Source of the DNA: a virus | IMG/VR virus record: IMGVR_UViG_3300046532_002069 | Span: 1 to 32,099 of that record | DNA length: 32,099 bases | Reading direction: 5' to 3' (one strand) | In this document: positions 3,699-30,633 of the stretch, piece by piece | Position numbering within the stretch: position 1 is the stretch's first letter | How the letters are laid out: every line of letters starts with the position of its first letter | Position numbers and translations under genes: made by a program | The notes under the pieces: generated by a model | Seen by the model: the letters and a program-made list of their open reading frames with translations, nothing else | Told to the model about the DNA's origin: nothing | The model's database searches: none

Positions 3699-4115
3699 CT
3701 ACAACTCCATTTGATAGGCTACATACGCCTGCTTGCCGCCATACTGACGAACCCAACGCCACCAAGCCCTACGCCCATAGCCCTCGATAGTTTGACAATC
3801 ATTTCTCTTGGCTTGCTCACGCATTGCTTCAACAGCCATGCCAGCCCAAGACTTCATTTTTTTACCGCCGATAAAGTCAACAATTAGTGTTTTGCTTCTG
3901 TGGTTCTGAACAATCCTAGATGTAAACACAGCCGCAATTTCTTTTGTGTCCTTATCAATCGCCAGCCAGAATATGTAATCCCCGTCAACCGCGCCGTTAT
4001 ACACGTCATCCATAGACATAAGATCAGGGGTTAAACGCACAGCCTTTTCTAAAAACGGAGATATATGAGGCCACAGCGTAGGCACTAGGCTTGCTGGCAC
4101 ATGCTCAATAATCAT
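3699..4115 (-). CDS. GNAT-like internal virion protein (T7 gp13 position and size)
   Basis: 138 residues with the look of a GNAT N-acetyltransferase fold: an N-terminal helix region (PHISPFLEKAVR), a β-strand pair (YIFWLAIDKDTKEIAAVFTSRIV), a strand (TLIVDFIGG), a helix (WAGMAVEAMREQAKRND) and a final strand-turn (CQTIEGYGRRAWWRWVRQYG). T7 gp13, an internal virion protein of similar size, is also GNAT-like, and related small GNAT-type genes occur in podovirus tail and core operons. No clear acetyl-CoA loop (Q/RxxGxG/A) is visible; a GGKKMKSWAG segment is the nearest, so catalysis is doubtful. The ATG overlaps the preceding stop in an ATGA junction. A structural role is as likely as an enzymatic one. 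Confidence 0.65.
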   Translation of the reverse strand: MIIEHVPASLVPTLWPHISPFLEKAVRLTPDLMSMDDVYNGAVDGDYIFWLAIDKDTKEIAAVFTSRIVQNHRSKTLIVDFIGGKKMKSWAGMAVEAMREQAKRNDCQTIEGYGRRAWWRWVRQYGGKQAYVAYQMEL

Positions 4116-4423
4116 CCGATTACAGCGTACACAAATGTTTTGTCTGTTGCAGACGTGTTGCCGTGCGTAATGGTAAAGGTATTCTTACCCCTTGACGAAA
4201 CAAAGGCATTCGCAGACGCAGCGTTAGCCGTAGTCGGCATAAGCAAAACACAACTATCGACGCCAACCTTAAAGTCAGATACAACGCTTGTTGCAGAGCT
4301 TGCAGTAAGCGTTACGCTGCCTAAATTGTTTTGCTTGCCGTCAACAACTAGATTGACAACTTGTGCAACCTGACGCGCATTAGCCCCGTCAGTCGGAAGC
4401 TTGCTAAAACTATTCTGGCTCAT
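4112..4423 (-). CDS. Small β-rich phage structural protein (103 aa)
   Basis: It belongs by pattern to a group of roughly 90-105 residue phage proteins that end in a β-sandwich-like segment. An N-terminal helix (ANARQVAQVVNLVVDGK) is followed by alternating strands (LGSVTLTASSATSVVSDFKV, SCVLLMPTTANAAS, VSSRGKNTFTITHG, KTFVYAVIG). Such proteins are common beside podovirus tail genes, but I know no firm function; minor tail, fibre-associated or decoration roles are possible. Both ends use 4-base ATGA overlaps with the neighbouring genes, so it is part of a tightly coupled tail cluster. No cysteine-rich, membrane or enzymatic motif is seen except one cysteine in SCVLLM. Confidence 0.65.
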   Translation of the reverse strand: MSQNSFSKLPTDGANARQVAQVVNLVVDGKQNNLGSVTLTASSATSVVSDFKVGVDSCVLLMPTTANAASANAFVSSRGKNTFTITHGNTSATDKTFVYAVIG

Positions 4424-5886
4424 CTGCGACCTGATACAGCCGTGTCAGCCGTAATGCCTAAAGCGTTTTGCCAGTTGCCCGTAATGCTAATCCTAACACG
4501 GTGATAGCGCCCGTTTGTCCTAAGCCTGCAATTATTGTTGGCGTCAATCGTTACATCGCTTGTAAATGTTGGCGCGTCTACTTGCCTGCTTCTCGTTCCA
4601 ACCGCTGACTTTACGACAAGGGCAGAGCTTGAGCCGCCAGTTGTGACGTAGGGTGAAACGCTTGTTATCATACTATAGCGCCCCTCTTGAGGTTCAAACT
4701 CAGCCGTTTCCAAAGCAGCCGCCAACGCAGCGCCAGAGAAGTTATGTAGCTTGTTGTCTTTGCTGGCTGTAAGTTGAAAAGATCCACCTTTATATGCGCG
4801 GCTATCTAATGAAGCAGTCAATGCATCTATGCTTGTGCTTATGCTGTCTAAGCTCTCTAGTGACTTACCTAGCGTCAAGCTAACGCCAATCATGTCATGC
4901 GCCAACTCAGCTACGGACCACTTGCCCAAAGCATAGTTGTAAACGATGATCTTGTTCGGCGAACTATTATTAGTGCTGGGGTATGACCACATGACCAACT
5001 GGCGAAGTGGATCAATGGCTGACGTAATTCTGCCAGCATTGCCAAACTCCAAGTCAGCTAGGAAAAACTCATCCACTTTACCAGCGCCAATAGGTATGGA
5101 TTGCTGACCGTTAAACATGAAAAACCCATCGTCAGCGATATAAAATATTTGGCGCGGCCCAAGCGCTGCAATCCCGCCAGCGAACGGAGTTCCTTTTTGC
5201 TCTATTGTCTCAAAGCTAAACACCAAAGGCGAGCCAATGTATTGCATCCGTACAATAGCTTTTTCACAAAACACTGTGCCAAACTCGCCGCCAACTATGC
5301 CCTTAACGTGGCCAGCATTCGGAATGTCTTGCACATCAGCTTGAGCCGTTCCAATCGTATATGACGTAGGATTGTTTAGCTGTGACCAGCGCACCCTGTC
5401 AGGGTGTGTGCCGCCAGAATAAGACACGTTGCCAGTAACGACAAAGTTTTTCACAACAGCTATATACCTAGCGTTTGGAGCTGTTGAAATGTCTGAAAAG
5501 TTTGTGCTGCTGCCTATTGAATATTCTTGTAACGGGTGACTTAGCGAACCAGCCGCAATAACCTTGCCCCCAAAGTCTACAAACTGCCATTGCTCATCGC
5601 TCGCTAGGTTGTAAGCACCGCTTGTACGCTTAACGTCATCTAGCGCGTTTGTCGTGGCGTTTTGCTTGTATAGTTTTGTTTGATCCCCAGCGAAGTTTTG
5701 AACTGTGCTAATGTTTGTTTTTGTAGAGTGAATGCCTCGCAGATATGCCGTTGCAGCGCCTGACATTGATGACAGGGAGCCAAAAGGCGCATAGCCTTTC
5801 GCATCAGGTATTACATTTGTCGCAACGGTTGCACCTGGATTTTGCAAAGGTGGTTGATCAGGAAGCCATTCGCCAAAAGGGATCAT
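4420..5886 (-). CDS. Tail nozzle / hub β-propeller protein (488 aa)
   Basis: Resembles the tail-tube nozzle or stabilisation proteins of podoviruses (T7 gp12 or P22 gp10 type), which close the tail below the adaptor. Visible features are an N-terminal PFGEWLPDQPPLQNPG segment, repeated β-blades (VKNFVVTGNVSYSGG, PDRVRWSQLNNPTSY, GIVGGEFGTVFCEKAIVRM), a conserved-looking QIFYIADDGFFMFNGQQSIPIG segment near residue 255, and VMWSYPS...IIVYNYALGKWS near residue 310. The start chosen is the ATG at 5884-5886: it makes an ATGA overlap with the upstream stop, like its neighbours, and has GGAAAG upstream. An ATG five codons earlier (5901) is less likely. The C-terminal third is Ser-rich β-sandwich-like. 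Fold assignment is by pattern, without structure prediction. Confidence 0.72.
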   Translation of the reverse strand: MIPFGEWLPDQPPLQNPGATVATNVIPDAKGYAPFGSLSSMSGAATAYLRGIHSTKTNISTVQNFAGDQTKLYKQNATTNALDDVKRTSGAYNLASDEQWQFVDFGGKVIAAGSLSHPLQEYSIGSSTNFSDISTAPNARYIAVVKNFVVTGNVSYSGGTHPDRVRWSQLNNPTSYTIGTAQADVQDIPNAGHVKGIVGGEFGTVFCEKAIVRMQYIGSPLVFSFETIEQKGTPFAGGIAALGPRQIFYIADDGFFMFNGQQSIPIGAGKVDEFFLADLEFGNAGRITSAIDPLRQLVMWSYPSTNNSSPNKIIVYNYALGKWSVAELAHDMIGVSLTLGKSLESLDSISTSIDALTASLDSRAYKGGSFQLTASKDNKLHNFSGAALAAALETAEFEPQEGRYSMITSVSPYVTTGGSSSALVVKSAVGTRSRQVDAPTFTSDVTIDANNNCRLRTNGRYHRVRISITGNWQNALGITADTAVSGRR

Positions 5887-8740: not shown

Positions 8741-11647
8741 TTATAAGACCCTCACTTTAAGATTTTGTGCTGCAAGCGATTTTATCTGAACCGTTGTACT
8801 TGCTGGAAAACGTGCGCGGTAATCTGTGCCTGCCAAGGCTTGTTCGTAAATCGCGCTTGCGACATAATTGATCGTTACGCCGTCTGAAACAGGAGCCGTT
8901 CCAGCGCTCGCCATATAGGGAGCAATCATCAGATCAAGCGTTGCTCCAAGCGCTATGTGGTTGGCGTCCGTAACGGCGTCTAGCTGCGCTTTGTCCATGC
9001 GATTCTGGGTCGTAGCGAGCGCTTGTTGAAGCGCTGACAGTTCGTTGTTTGTCGTGGCATTGGCCCATGTTTCTGAAGCGTAGGTTGCATTCGTATTGAT
9101 CTGCCATGTGCCACTGTTATTTTTGGCGATAGAACGTGTGCCATTTGTGTTATGAATAACCTTCCAAGTGACGTGATTGTCCGTACTGATAGAGTACATA
9201 ACCGTGCCGCCACCAGCCGTTTGTGCGGCGACCATTGTGTTAATGTCTGTCCAGTTAGTTGTATCTATTTGACCGCTTGAGCTTCCGACCGTTGGAAAAT
9301 AAGCTCCAGTGGGATTTGTAGAGGAACCTACTGAATATTCATAGACGGCTTGCGGATTGTCTGCCAGAACATAGAGCTTTGTTCCGTCTGGATTAATCAT
9401 TGTAGACTTTGGATAACTACTACTGACAGAGTGCGTCAGGGTTGTGGACGTTGAGTCTGTGTCTAAATCCCACGCCGTCGAGAGGTTGAATTGTGTGACT
9501 TTATTGGAGCTTGCAGTCGTAGTGCTATAAAACGGAACAAATAGTTTTGTTCCGTCAGTGCTAAAACTAAAACCCCCTGGAATAGAGCCTACTGTTCCCA
9601 CTTCAATGCGCGGCGAGCCGTAAGCGTTTGTGCTGGCGGTTGTTACATCCCAAGCTGTCGAGAGCGAGTATTCGTATATCATATCAGACGTAAGAGTTAC
9701 GTTGTTGAAGTGTCCGATATACATTTTTGTGCCGTCAGATTTGAACCTCACGCAGTGATATAAAACGGAACCTATCGAAGAAGATAGGGTCAACGAACTA
9801 AACGAGCTAGTGCTTGTTATGTCCCACGCCGTTGCTAAGACAAACTGATAAAGAACATTATTTTGGCCACCAAGAATGTACATTTTTGTGCCGTCGGATT
9901 TGAACTCTATCCCCATCGGGTAATTGTCGTAAAAATTAGTAATGCCGCTGGTTGTACTTACCGAAACACTATCATAACTCGCAGTCGAAGTGTCATAAGC
10001 GGTAGATAGAGAGTATTGGAAAATTTTGTCATGGGATATGTCAACAAAGTACATTTTTGTGCCGTCAGAGTTGAAGGCAAAATCTGTTGCTCCTGAAAGT
10101 TGACTGCTGACAGATAAAGTGTCCGTAAGCGAGCCAGACCCCAAATTGTAACCAGTTAAAAGGCCACTTAACGAAACGCCAGAACCATCACTTACGAACT
10201 CAGTTCCGTACAGATACCAATCGCCTGACGCGATTGCATTTGTGTTCGTGAAGTTTGTAGAGGTTGTGTATGTACCGCTTGCAGCCGTTATGATGGCCAC
10301 GCCGCCGTTGCCCGTCACCCGCTTACCTATGTCAGCAGTCGCAAACGAACCAGTTGAAAGCGTGAACGTGCCACTCCCAACCGCGCTTGGCGTGAGCGTT
10401 GCTCCAGAAAATGCAGAGGTTGCAAGGTTTTGTTCAGTGTAGTTTGAACCAGTTGAGTTCACGTCCCAATTGCCTTTGGAGATTACAGTCGATGTTGAAA
10501 TTTCCTTGAAAACCGAAACTACAGGCACAGGCGAAACAGCCGCCGAAAGCGTTATGCTGGCTTCTTCATTTTGAGTGAAAGTTTTGGTTAATGTTCCTAC
10601 ATTATCAACTCCACCAGCCGCAGCAAACTCTAAACCATTGCCAGCCGAATTGACTTTAATCGCCTGTCCAGAAGTTCCTAGCGCGGGTGGCAGCACAACA
10701 TTGCCGGAGCCGTGGTTTACGATTTCCACAATATCACTGGCCAGCAAGGCCGTGCCAAAAACGACCGAACTACCGTTAGACGCAGTAATATCGTTGCGTT
10801 TCACGCCGTTTACATAGGCCGCAATTCTTCCAGAGCTATACGCTGGAAGGGCTGGGCTAGAGCTTGCGTTGAATGTCGTGTTTCCTGCACTGGCCGTATA
10901 TGCCGTGACAGAATAATCTGTGCCGCCAGCAATAGAGGCCGACAAAACGCCAGAGCCGTCTATTGACAGGTTGGAACCAATCTTGACGCCGCCAAGGGCG
11001 CTGGCGGTAGCCGCTGGTAATGTGTAGGTAGTACCGCCTTGGCTTACATTGCCGCCCATACCGTCGTGAGATGAACAGTAATAATAAAGCGTCGGCGCAT
11101 CTTGCTCTAGCTTGACCTGCATATAAGCGCCAGCCGTGCCGCGTGTGCCTACTTCCGTAATGCCTGTAGTATAAGCCGTCGCGCCTGTGGAATTAGTCAA
11201 AACAGCGGCGTCAGTGCTAAATTTTAATGGATGACTTCCTAAGGCGGAAGTGTCTAATCTATACGTGATAGACGGCAGTAAAGTCATAGTCTGGTTTTCG
11301 GTTCCATCTATAACAAAATTACTGTTTGCAATGGTAACGCTAATGGTCATCATCAGATCATCAGCGTTTGGCGACAGGAACACCGTAGATGTGCCAGACA
11401 GAGATAAGAGCGCACCAGTGCTGCTAGAGCGTAGAGTGCGCGTTAGTGTTCCTCCTGAGTGGGTGAACGTGCCAGTCCCAATTTCCCAAGCCGCGCCATT
11501 AGCCGATTCTATGACGTAACCAACAGTCTTGGCGTTAAGCGTAGCTGGAAATGCTTGAAAACCCGACACAGGCGTACCCGACAAGGTTATTGTCGAATTG
11601 CCTGTAGTCGAAGTGGTTGTTTTAACGCGGTCTGCAAAAACTGGCAT
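8741..11647 (-). CDS. Large multidomain tail fibre with cupredoxin-like domain and β-propeller repeats (968 aa)
   Basis: Domains seen in order. Residues 1-95: an N-terminal segment common in phage fibres (MPVFADRVKTTTSTTGNSTI), probably the virion anchor. About 100-202: a cupredoxin-like domain with candidate type-1 copper ligands H139, C191, H194 and M197 (C-x2-H-x2-M in YYYCSSHDGMGG). About 205-345: fibre-type β-repeats (AAYVNGVKRNDI, SDIVEIVNHGSG). About 505-780: five blades marked by SDGTKM-type motifs near 527, 584, 637, 697 and 753, with YSLSTAWD-like strands, suggesting a β-propeller. The C-terminus (about 830-968) is partly helical (ELSALQQALATTQNRMDKAQLD). It is the longest tail gene and first of three consecutive fibre genes. 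The start has AGGG upstream. Host binding is inferred. Confidence 0.75.
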   Translation of the reverse strand: MPVFADRVKTTTSTTGNSTITLSGTPVSGFQAFPATLNAKTVGYVIESANGAAWEIGTGTFTHSGGTLTRTLRSSSTGALLSLSGTSTVFLSPNADDLMMTISVTIANSNFVIDGTENQTMTLLPSITYRLDTSALGSHPLKFSTDAAVLTNSTGATAYTTGITEVGTRGTAGAYMQVKLEQDAPTLYYYCSSHDGMGGNVSQGGTTYTLPAATASALGGVKIGSNLSIDGSGVLSASIAGGTDYSVTAYTASAGNTTFNASSSPALPAYSSGRIAAYVNGVKRNDITASNGSSVVFGTALLASDIVEIVNHGSGNVVLPPALGTSGQAIKVNSAGNGLEFAAAGGVDNVGTLTKTFTQNEEASITLSAAVSPVPVVSVFKEISTSTVISKGNWDVNSTGSNYTEQNLATSAFSGATLTPSAVGSGTFTLSTGSFATADIGKRVTGNGGVAIITAASGTYTTSTNFTNTNAIASGDWYLYGTEFVSDGSGVSLSGLLTGYNLGSGSLTDTLSVSSQLSGATDFAFNSDGTKMYFVDISHDKIFQYSLSTAYDTSTASYDSVSVSTTSGITNFYDNYPMGIEFKSDGTKMYILGGQNNVLYQFVLATAWDITSTSSFSSLTLSSSIGSVLYHCVRFKSDGTKMYIGHFNNVTLTSDMIYEYSLSTAWDVTTASTNAYGSPRIEVGTVGSIPGGFSFSTDGTKLFVPFYSTTTASSNKVTQFNLSTAWDLDTDSTSTTLTHSVSSSYPKSTMINPDGTKLYVLADNPQAVYEYSVGSSTNPTGAYFPTVGSSSGQIDTTNWTDINTMVAAQTAGGGTVMYSISTDNHVTWKVIHNTNGTRSIAKNNSGTWQINTNATYASETWANATTNNELSALQQALATTQNRMDKAQLDAVTDANHIALGATLDLMIAPYMASAGTAPVSDGVTINYVASAIYEQALAGTDYRARFPASTTVQIKSLAAQNLKVRVL

Positions 11648-26679: not shown

Positions 26680-27483
26680 TCATTCCAGCCATGCTGGAAG
26701 TTGCGCGACGTGAACTGCAGGCCAGCCCGTCGCATATGTTTCTGTTTGGATTGCCTGTTCTATCCGTGCTAGGATTTCTTCAACTTGCGTTAGGCTGTGC
26801 GCCATAAGCTCTGGCCCAACCTCAACTAAGCTCGTTGCGTAGGGCGGCTCTTTTTCTACGTTGGCGAATAAAAAGCGGTCACACCGTAAGCCAGCAAGCT
26901 CCAAGGTTCGCTTGTACCAAGCCGCTTGAAATGCGTACTTGAGCTTGTACATCTGGCGTTCGAATTCATAAGGCTCAGCGCTGATTGTTGTCTTGAGATC
27001 GACCACAATACCCTGACTTTGGATCATCAGGTCAGGCCGTGCTTTTAACGCCAGTGACGTGTTGTCGTGCGCTGCGAATATGCTGGCCTCTGCCACCTTG
27101 TCTTTGTGGCCCAGCAAAAAGCCTATCTGTGGGCTTTCATGCAATGCATCGACCATGCCGCTAACGCGCTCATAGTCTGCATCAGTCAAGCACACGACGT
27201 TCATTTTTTCGGCGCGTTCAGCCGCTTCTTTCCAAGCATTGCCGCGCCTAGTCTCGCCGCCTTTGATGGGCAGTATTCCATCACCAGCCCAAGCGTGAAC
27301 TGCGCGTCCTATTTGGAAAGCTGGCGTATCTTTATAAGCTCTTGCGCAAAACGCATGGGCTATGCTTTGGCTTAATACAGATTTACCTTTGCTTGAACTT
27401 ACGGATTGCCTACCTTCGATTTCGTCAAGCGCGTGATAGACTTTATCTGATAGGCCATAATGTACACCAAATGAATACGTCAT
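26680..27483 (-). CDS. RecE/Exo VIII-like PDDEXK exonuclease (267 aa)
   Basis: Likely 5'-3' dsDNA exonuclease. The N-terminus (SDKVYHALDEIEGRQSVSSSKGKSVLSQS) and FQIGRAVHAW (H63) match the PDDEXK-like family related to RecE C-terminal and DUF3799 domains. Catalytic motifs: E132 (VAEASIF), ALKARPDLM with D151, VVDLKTT with D162-x-K164, and the following YAFQAAWYKR helix (Q186, Y190). All core residues seem intact. Its start overlaps the zinc-protein stop by four bases. No RecT or Redβ-type annealase is recognised next to it; the SSB-like protein follows directly. Confidence 0.78.
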   Translation of the reverse strand: MTYSFGVHYGLSDKVYHALDEIEGRQSVSSSKGKSVLSQSIAHAFCARAYKDTPAFQIGRAVHAWAGDGILPIKGGETRRGNAWKEAAERAEKMNVVCLTDADYERVSGMVDALHESPQIGFLLGHKDKVAEASIFAAHDNTSLALKARPDLMIQSQGIVVDLKTTISAEPYEFERQMYKLKYAFQAAWYKRTLELAGLRCDRFLFANVEKEPPYATSLVEVGPELMAHSLTQVEEILARIEQAIQTETYATGWPAVHVAQLPAWLE

Positions 27484-27635
27484 TCTTCTTCCTCATCCGC
27501 TGAAATCTTGCCTTCGCCGTTGCAAAACATGCAATCTTCAAGCTGTTCGATTGGCTCTAAGCCTCTGCCGAAATTGGCCCAGCCGCCCACGTCAACCTTG
27601 CCTTGACCGTCACACTCTGGGCATTTACGCATCAT
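27480..27635 (-). CDS. Small zinc-finger protein with two CxxCxGxG motifs (51 aa)
   Basis: A 51-residue frame that encodes CPECDGQGKV near the N-terminus and CMFCNGEGKI near residue 35, i.e. two DnaJ-type CxxCxGxG motifs expected to bind one zinc ion. The C-terminus is acidic (SADEEEE). It overlaps the C5 methyltransferase end by 11 bases (ATGATG start; the second ATG at 27630-27632 is possible) and the exonuclease start by four bases. Similar tiny rubredoxin-like or DnaJ-finger proteins occur in phage early operons with unknown partners. Confidence 0.65.
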   Translation of the reverse strand: MMRKCPECDGQGKVDVGGWANFGRGLEPIEQLEDCMFCNGEGKISADEEEE

Positions 27636-28488
27636 GGATCACCGCCTTGATCGTCTGCCCAATCCGCATGGCAACTTGTGGAACGATTGCGTTGCCTAGC
27701 CCTTTAAGTCTGTCCACCCTTCCGGGTATCCCATTAGCCACTCGACCCACTGAGGGTTCAGTGAGCCAGGCGTTGCCTCCTTTCTGCCCACGGCTCTGCG
27801 TAAGCATTCGTCTCCAATCGCACTCTCTGCCCAGTTTGAGACGTCTCCCGTCATCTTCCAATCTCTTGCTCTGGGTGTCGGCCACATCGCTACTGCTGTT
27901 GCTAGGGAATTGCCTCTTGATGGGATTTTCTTTTCGTCTCCCTTGTGGTTCTTGTACGGCCCTCCTGTTGAGGCTAACGGTGTCGGCCACATTTCGGGCG
28001 ACGATCCAGAGTCTATCTCGTCTGTGAGGTGCGTCCGTGGCGCAAGCTGGAACAACGAACGGCCTGACGGCGTAGGCTTCACGTTCCAAGTCAGAAAGCA
28101 CTTCGTCGAGGCCCATAGAGACATGCCCATAAACATTTTCGAAAACGCACCAAGCTGGTCGTTTTGCTTGAACAATGGAAAATATGTATGGCCAGATATG
28201 TCTGTCATCTTCACTGCCCCTACGCTCCCCGGCCAGTGAAAAGGGCTGGCATGGGTATCCGGCTGTGAGGATTGTTCGTCTTGGGTCTGTGCCTGGAATA
28301 AGTCCATCTGGGTCATTAGCAAGCTCCTTTACATCTGTAGCTATCGGCACGTCAGGCCAGTGTTTTCTCAATATCTTTCGGCTCCAAGGCTCTATGTCGC
28401 AGAACAAGACAGGCTTACTTAAACCAGCCCATTCAAAGCCAAGGGCAAAGCCGCCTATGCCACTGCACAGATCAACGTGCGCCATCAT
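27625..28488 (-). CDS. DNA (cytosine-5) methyltransferase (287 aa)
   Basis: Orphan C5 methyltransferase, with no cognate restriction gene beside it. Motif I DLCSGIGGFALGF (residues 6-18), motif IV GYPCQPFSLAGERRG with catalytic C80, motif VI FENVYG (116-121), motif VIII APHRRDRLWIVA, and motif X GLGNAIVPQVA near 263-273 are all present, so it appears active. The target-recognition part between VIII and IX is about 95 residues, short and compositionally odd (RRAVQEPQGRRKENPIKRQ, SNSSSDVADTQS). A second gene runs in another frame through codons 58-264. Function may be self-protection from host restriction. ATGA overlap with the upstream gene. Confidence 0.88.
   Translation of the reverse strand: MMAHVDLCSGIGGFALGFEWAGLSKPVLFCDIEPWSRKILRKHWPDVPIATDVKELANDPDGLIPGTDPRRTILTAGYPCQPFSLAGERRGSEDDRHIWPYIFSIVQAKRPAWCVFENVYGHVSMGLDEVLSDLEREAYAVRPFVVPACATDAPHRRDRLWIVARNVADTVSLNRRAVQEPQGRRKENPIKRQFPSNSSSDVADTQSKRLEDDGRRLKLGRECDWRRMLTQSRGQKGGNAWLTEPSVGRVANGIPGRVDRLKGLGNAIVPQVAMRIGQTIKAVIHDA
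27696..28316 (-). CDS. Nested out-of-frame gene inside the C5 methyltransferase: WPTP / LNPxWVEWLMGYP family protein (206 aa)
   Basis: Same strand, different frame from the methyltransferase and wholly inside it. The protein resembles a phage and prophage family that accompanies or is fused to C5 methyltransferases: LGAFSKMFMGMSLWASTKCF near 55-73, LTWNVKPTPSGRSLFQLAPRT, MWPTP at 109-113 and 144-148, and LNPQWVEWLMGYPEGWTDL near the C-terminus. The ATG at 28314-28316 has AAAGGAG with a 7-base spacer, a strong ribosome site within the methyltransferase frame. Recognisable motifs in both frames suggest genuine overprinting. Role is unknown; help in target recognition is a guess. Absence of homologues in this frame would refute it. 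Confidence 0.7.
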   Translation of the reverse strand: MTQMDLFQAQTQDEQSSQPDTHASPFHWPGSVGAVKMTDISGHTYFPLFKQNDQLGAFSKMFMGMSLWASTKCFLTWNVKPTPSGRSLFQLAPRTHLTDEIDSGSSPEMWPTPLASTGGPYKNHKGDEKKIPSRGNSLATAVAMWPTPRARDWKMTGDVSNWAESAIGDECLRRAVGRKEATPGSLNPQWVEWLMGYPEGWTDLKG

Positions 28489-29973: not shown

Positions 29974-30633
29974 ATGAAACAAAACATATCTCATGCCGTA
30001 ATGTCACAACGAAACCCAAACATGGATACATTTGACAATTTTCCAACACCACCTTGGGCGGTACGTGGCTTCATCGACAGTCAATTAATCGGTTCACACG
30101 ATCTCTCCAAAAGTAGTTGCTTGGAGCCTGCATGTGGACAAGGTTATATGTCTGAGGCTCTTAAAGAGTACTTTGCTGAAGTGGTTAGTTTTGATATTCT
30201 TGACTACGGTTATGACGATATGATTCAAACTGATTTCTTGAATAACTCATTAGATGACAACTCATTTGACTGGGTAATAACCAATCCGCCATTCAAGGCC
30301 GCAGAAGATTTTATATTTGAAGCTCATAGAGTAGCTCGTGTTGGTGTAGCTATGCTAGTGCGTACTGTTTTTATAGAAAGTGTGGGCCGTTATGAACGCC
30401 TATTTCTAAGAAAAGTGCCCAGTTTTTTTGCACAATACGTCGAACGTGTTGCAATGGTGAAGGGACGACTAGACCGTAAGGCGTCGACCGCCACTGGGTA
30501 TGGTTGGATCGTTTGGGAAAAAAATAAACCAATAGAAAATTGTACTTTAAAATGGATACCACCCTCTAGAAAGCGATTGGAAAGAAACTCAGATTATGAA
30601 GAAATTTTTCAAAAGGAACTTTTTAGTGCCTAA
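29974..30633 (+). CDS. DNA N6-adenine methyltransferase, orphan (219 aa)
   Basis: Class-I methyltransferase with motif I LEPACGQGYMSEAL (residues 50-63), SFDILDYG as the motif II acidic strand (D74), and motif IV TNPPF at 103-107, the N6-adenine signature. An N-terminal FDNFPTPPWAVRGFI is typical of phage enzymes of this kind. It follows the repressor by 17 bases on the same strand, so it would be made in the lysogen. It looks more AT-rich than the early operon, a hint of separate acquisition. Its stop lies nine bases from the convergent integrase stop. No restriction partner is seen. Possible roles: protection of phage DNA or altered host gene expression. Confidence 0.8.
   Translation: MKQNISHAVMSQRNPNMDTFDNFPTPPWAVRGFIDSQLIGSHDLSKSSCLEPACGQGYMSEALKEYFAEVVSFDILDYGYDDMIQTDFLNNSLDDNSFDWVITNPPFKAAEDFIFEAHRVARVGVAMLVRTVFIESVGRYERLFLRKVPSFFAQYVERVAMVKGRLDRKASTATGYGWIVWEKNKPIENCTLKWIPPSRKRLERNSDYEEIFQKELFSA

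Follow-up and report, generated by a model that had tools for sequence, protein, structure and literature searches.

Two overlapping genes on the minus strand of this viral DNA very probably encode the two halves of a single heterodimeric C5 cytosine methyltransferase, split along structural domains in the manner of M.EcoHK31I. The first, alpha (287 aa; 27625..28488), is identified as a C5 cytosine methyltransferase catalytic (large) domain with motif X by PF00145, phrog_363, hhalign and AF2; the second, beta (206 aa; 27696..28316), lies nested in alpha's +1 frame and is assigned as the small-domain subunit from its match to phrog_1008, its nesting and purifying selection. Coordinates refer to the window, that is, the whole 32,099-nucleotide stretch of DNA that was analysed, which is a virus record of IMG/VR.

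In the mechanism we propose, alpha would supply the large catalytic domain, with AdoMet binding, the catalytic Pro-Cys, the Glu-Asn-Val motifs and a C-terminal motif X helix, and a disordered linker would replace the usual small domain. Beta, whose translation in the +1 frame would be driven by a strong internal ribosome-binding site of its own, would be that missing small domain, comprising the variable region that reads the DNA target together with motif IX, which normally organises this region. The two chains would assemble and re-create the complete enzyme; as both would be needed for this, neither should methylate alone. Selection on both genes, the partition of motifs, the arrangement in relatives and the predicted disordered linker are established by computation, and we infer that the chains associate physically, that they depend on each other and that beta recognises bases.

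Two selected genes in one stretch of DNA

The beta frame runs from ATG to TAG and contains, in order, a conserved N-terminal part, a variable region and a motif IX-like end; MWPTP occurs at residues 109 and 144, and LNPQWVEWLMGYP forms the end of the protein. Alpha codon position 2 is beta codon position 1, and 621 of alpha's 864 bases are shared. Alpha matches PF00145 (1.4e-34) and phrog_363 (3.5e-66), and beta matches phrog_1008 (4.2e-27) with no match in Pfam or NCBIfam; an Rfam scan of the whole window gave no match. An earlier note on this DNA had described a complete second gene overprinted on the methyltransferase, and its coordinates, the 206 residues, the two MWPTP motifs, the ending and AAAGGAG seven bases before the ATG all proved exact on translation. 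That this is indeed a second gene is borne out by the phrog_1008 match, by a nested open frame in nearly all homologues and by selection.

The Shine-Dalgarno sequence AAAGGAG (28324..28330, minus strand) lies within alpha's Val-Lys-Glu codons. Its predicted anti-SD duplex is strong (-7.9 kcal/mol), compared with a weak one for alpha (-2.5), and alpha's ATG shares bases with the stop codon of the preceding gene; for these reasons alpha is probably translationally coupled to the upstream gene, and beta probably starts independently. The position of the beta Shine-Dalgarno sequence is conserved: of 48 nonredundant loci, 43 have AAG as the Lys codon and 34 have GAG as the Glu codon, as against 46% AAG and 33% GAG elsewhere in alpha. 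Changing AAT to AAC within alpha is silent for alpha and turns the beta ATG into ACG.

The length of the nested frame is not explained by alpha's coding content. When alpha's codons were redrawn synonymously under the window's codon usage, the beta frame was open in 0 of 20,000 cases (mean 9.5 stops); permuting alpha's own codons left it open once in 20,000, and across 48 nonredundant relatives the mean fraction of open redraws was 0.0005. Ordinary C5 methyltransferases, however, have a +1 open run of at least 150 aa in 5 of 32 cases (median 60), so openness alone is weak evidence and a first step only, and as the only evidence for beta it was rejected. A separate observation concerns one canonical C5 methyltransferase (L357:1501-2475) that has a 212-aa open +1 frame lacking homology to beta, which may be chance or another overlap.

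Substitution patterns in the two frames are more telling. The mean third-position difference in alpha is 0.49 before the overlap and 0.59 after it; within the overlap it is 0.28 in the catalytic part, 0.53 in the variable part, where differences occur at all codon positions, and 0.13 at the motif IX end. We then counted isolated differences in 32 disjoint pairs, with the overlap divided into first, middle and last parts. Changes silent in alpha were also silent in beta in 31/292 cases in the first part (expected 3.1%, p = 3e-9), 6/22 in the middle (expected 3.1%, p = 4e-5) and 8/14 in the last (expected 4.3%, p = 3e-8), and the reverse test, for constraint on alpha, gave 31/124 (p = 1e-19), 6/180 (p = 0.57) and 8/26 (p = 3e-5), respectively; the pairs share some ancestry, and the tests depend on an alignment that is more difficult in the variable region, but the effect sizes are large. 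Control regions outside the overlap gave no beta signal, and 83 non-independent pairs showed the same pattern of constraint. These two-way tests and their controls establish that both frames are genes under selection and that over alpha residues 166-240 beta alone is constrained. Hence the synonymous-site comparison across homologues that the earlier note had proposed finds constraint on beta throughout the overlap and on alpha in its first and last parts, and its suggestion of joint constraint on the two frames at either end of the overlap holds, in the drop in third-position differences as well as in the silent changes.

It could be argued that the nested frame is spurious, a by-product of methyltransferase codon bias, and the frequency of long +1 runs in canonical enzymes given above speaks for this. 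Yet the beta frame never stays open in synonymous redraws, alpha-silent changes are also beta-silent far above expectation, and the variable region is conserved in beta and not in alpha. The probability left to such an artefact is negligible, and within the alpha/beta family it is already refuted.

Division of domains and motifs between the chains

Alpha contains, in this order, motif I (VDLCSGIGGFALGFEW; 28429..28476, outside the overlap), motif IV (GYPCQPFS, with the catalytic Cys and an invariant Pro-Cys; 28237..28260), motif VI (ENV; 28132..28140), motif VIII (APHRRDRLWIVA; 27997..28032) and motif X (GLGNAIVPQVAMRIGQTI; 27649..27702), all on the minus strand. Motifs I to VIII were placed by alignment with M.HhaI, with further support from hhalign for VIII, and hhalign of residues 1-169 against canonical C5 methyltransferases gives 2e-44 over motifs I-VIII. 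Motif X lies directly past beta's end, in a helix (residues 270-286) within a region of pLDDT >90. The AF2 model of alpha matches M.HhaI and M.HaeIII, and its large domain and motif X helix are confident (pLDDT mostly >90); residues 189-264, which include most of the stretch coding for beta's variable region and motif IX, fall below 50. Likewise, the middle 75 codons (aa 166-240) are predicted to form a mostly disordered linker. A PSSM of canonical motif IX found no match in alpha; the chain that holds the catalytic motifs has neither this motif nor a recognition domain. Because motif IX is absent and the stretch in question is an unconstrained, predicted-disordered linker, alpha is only the catalytic half of a C5 methyltransferase. 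The earlier description of alpha as keeping motifs I to X thus does not stand for motif IX, since a motif IX-like segment is in beta instead.

The variable region (27769..27993, minus strand) encodes the alpha linker (aa 166-240) in one frame and beta's candidate recognition domain in the other, and only beta is under selection there. In beta it is headed by WPTP boxes, which number from 0 to 6 per protein; here the two MWPTP boxes occupy residues 109-113 (27978..27992, minus strand) and 144-148 (27873..27887, minus strand). The motif IX-like segment SLNPQWVEWLMGYPEGWTDL follows (27705..27764, minus strand), lying over alpha's EPSVGRVANGIPGRVDRLKG, with both frames constrained. The motif IX PSSM, built from 27 canonical motif IX segments, picks out LNPQWVEWLMGYPEGWT in beta with a score that 0 of 3000 shuffles reach, and a motif IX-like segment is the sole part of beta that hhalign aligns with canonical enzymes, in an alignment that is short and weak (E 0.083). 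AF2 folds beta alone poorly (pLDDT 51), and this model was set aside as a basis for fold claims; comparison of the beta sequence and profile with solved structures gave no meaningful match. For both reasons beta's identity as a small domain rests on a short motif and its position. Taken together, hhalign, AF2, the placement of motif IX and the WPTP-headed variable region argue that alpha is the large domain with motif X and that beta is the small domain. Target recognition that alpha lacks is therefore most likely supplied by beta, as had been proposed from the sequence, since the variable region is selected in beta only and alpha has no recognition domain.

Two further features of beta deserve mention. 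Residues 1-100 (28017-28316; SG..., LWASTKCYLTWK...) are conserved, overlap alpha's catalytic motifs up to VIII and have no known relative outside the alpha/beta family. Among betas, the segment NTMDHLPQRSKEAL occurs at differing positions and beside differing neighbouring cassettes (in an alignment that includes L010, L041, L053 and L061), and whole cassettes distinguish the beta of L048 from that of L023. The WPTP-headed cassettes thus seem, by sequence comparison, to be mobile. A tentative extension, which we hold to be possible rather than probable, is that beta serves as a swappable specificity module in which WPTP cassettes are gained, lost or moved, changing the methylation specificity, with an alpha linker that tolerates any sequence. 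If so, overprinting would be a means of holding catalysis and specificity within a single short piece of DNA.

Relatives, annotation and genomic setting

The overlap of alpha and beta is found, in the same relative frame, in the window and in all 84 close relatives. A stop was crossed in two BLAST alignments, that of the L076 alpha and that of the L003 beta, for which profile searches found the beta frame to be intact. By profile search, nested loci made up 131/131 in IMG/VR, 78/80 in GTDB (by record title from Alphaproteobacteria, Clostridia and Bacilli, Bacteroidota, Acidobacteria, Chloroflexi and others) and 12/13 in public phage or plasmid records; further genome loci from Actinomycetota and Pseudomonadota were nested in 34/34 cases, with motif X in alpha, and all six E. 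coli prophage or coliphage alphas that were checked together have a nested beta. So that the survey did not depend on beta searches alone, 60 bacterial loci were selected through their alpha gene, and in this set beta was present in all 22 intact alphas with a phrog_363-type C-terminus and in no canonical methyltransferase; two loci (L310 and L337) are broken copies with remnants of both genes. Homologues of the nested frame therefore exist, as the overprinting proposal demanded, and stops in that frame of relatives are essentially absent. A Roseovarius chromosome carries five alpha/beta copies (L103-L107) with identical scores, presumably repeated prophages.

There are also exceptions. In a Bacillota locus (L159:2251-3560) and in Gordonia phage Jumbo (L092:1679-2600), alpha ends after motif VIII, and the beta frame has motif X in addition to the variable region and motif IX, which is the M.AquI layout; these two loci may be intermediates between split and nested forms. 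In another locus (L108), the alpha stop lies just upstream of motif X. Beta was neither alone nor fused in any of the exceptional loci, and no single-frame alpha-beta fusion was seen in any locus tested. The part of the earlier proposal that has the beta family fused to phage methyltransferases is for this reason unsupported.

These observations bear on two other readings of beta. It might be a separate regulator or accessory factor, such as an anti-restriction or nuclease-binding protein, that is made and selected and acts outside the methyltransferase; beta's lack of a Pfam or NCBIfam match and of a confident fold would be in keeping with this, as would its conserved and unexplained N-terminal 100 residues. 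We regard such a role as improbable, because every beta in the loci examined came with an alpha that overlaps it, because motif IX is exactly what alpha misses and beta has, and because motifs IX and X stand together in the beta frame of the two loci in which alpha ends after motif VIII, as expected for a methyltransferase half. It is less probable still that programmed frameshifting joins alpha and beta into one chain. The frames come close at the 3' end of beta, where the junction LKG/LKGLGN is near-continuous, but beta starts at a codon of its own, which in most cases closely follows an in-frame stop, and its Shine-Dalgarno sequence is conserved; furthermore, two shifts would be needed, and the conserved segment that one of the frames has before motif X would be lost. 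The heterodimeric enzyme is thus the explanation that we prefer.

The inner gene has been treated unevenly in public records. Depositors annotated it in phages Diva, Lily and K1ind2 as an 'internal gene' or an Mte8-like protein, with no function given beyond methyltransferase; in C72C1, R9.1, HB10c2, KlebP_265, Nitzel and PhiXhv-2 it is absent from the annotation and the frame is open. In all five E. coli genomes examined, RefSeq calls only alpha and leaves the inner gene unannotated, again with an open frame. In E. coli Ec1117 (L399:3863-5032), RefSeq records two pseudogene pieces where the alpha frame (3818-5029) and the nested beta are open. An overlap known from one bacterial enzyme is common in phages and prophages, and its second half is usually missed by annotation. 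If the heterodimer model is right, cloning such methyltransferases as a single gene would yield an apparently dead enzyme. To our knowledge, long same-strand overlaps in which both products are demonstrably selected are not often documented, and here constraint on one stretch of DNA is partitioned, acting on both frames in the catalytic part, on beta only in the recognition part and on both again at motif IX.

The pair lies behind a Cro-like gene, and next to come are an exonuclease VIII-like gene and the gene of an ssDNA-annealing protein, a context that is an early lytic (recombination) operon of a temperate phage. An upstream PDDEXK gene (PF24608, Holliday-junction-resolvase-like) was considered as a restriction-modification partner and rejected, as the two are not linked in relatives (a homologue is in the flanks of 14/71 only); the linked restriction endonuclease of a Type II restriction-modification system is not evident. 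Given this position in an early recombination operon behind a Cro-like gene, and with no evident restriction endonuclease partner, the simplest reading is that the pair is likely an orphan methyltransferase that shields phage DNA against restriction by the host early in lytic growth.

Three other genes in the window may be recorded here. A second DNA methyltransferase gene (29974-30633, plus strand; phrog_799, 1e-47) adjoins a CI-like repressor. Directly after alpha, a gene for a 51-aa protein with a DnaJ-like CxxC zinc-finger pattern (27480-27635, minus strand) is matched by a homologue in the flanking DNA of just 1/67 relatives. In the structural gene region, a 968-aa protein (8741-11647, minus strand) has no PHROG match.

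Comparison with known split methyltransferases

It is useful to consider the pair in light of related arrangements. Beta and alpha match phrog_1008 and phrog_363, respectively, both labelled DNA methyltransferase, and the entries make no mention of the two being overprinted partners. The same overlap is present in Paenibacillus phages Diva (gp49/gp50) and Lily (gp62/gp63) and in coliphage K1ind2 (ORF29/ORF28); the beta of the Paenibacillus phages is distant, at about 32% to the beta described here. A limited search of the literature found no general description of the overlap, which does not exclude that one exists.

M.AquI alpha/beta (CYCGRG) is likewise a C5 methyltransferase that occurs naturally as two chains, with the break near the variable region. 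It differs in that motifs IX and X are both on the small subunit, whereas motif X here is on alpha, past beta's stop; the two exceptional loci described above (L159 and L092) look M.AquI-like in this respect.

The closer likeness is to M.EcoHK31I, in which the small gene lies inside the large gene in another frame; the nested small gene here and in relatives repeats that arrangement. M.EcoHK31I (YGGCCR; Lee, Kam and Shaw 1995, cited in PMC3404938) consists of two polypeptides; as the citing source describes this C5 methyltransferase, its large chain bears motifs I-VIII together with X, and motif IX alone is on the small chain (PMC3404938), so that by published description its partition agrees with that of alpha and beta. 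Furthermore, C5 methyltransferases split between motif VIII and the TRD reassemble and work (PMC3404938; PMC5944983). There are also differences: here the pair is a phage early gene with no evident restriction partner, and the recognition region, which we place in beta, is predicted in M.EcoHK31I to be in the large subunit according to the published summary (PMC3404938). This mismatch qualifies membership of the M.EcoHK31I type and does not cancel it, because the placement in the large subunit is a published prediction and not a defining property. What sets the present family apart is its broad spread, a recognition region in beta rather than in alpha, and the absence of beta from RefSeq annotation of E. 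coli prophages. With the layout that can be checked in common, the alpha/beta pair looks like a phage member of the M.EcoHK31I kind.
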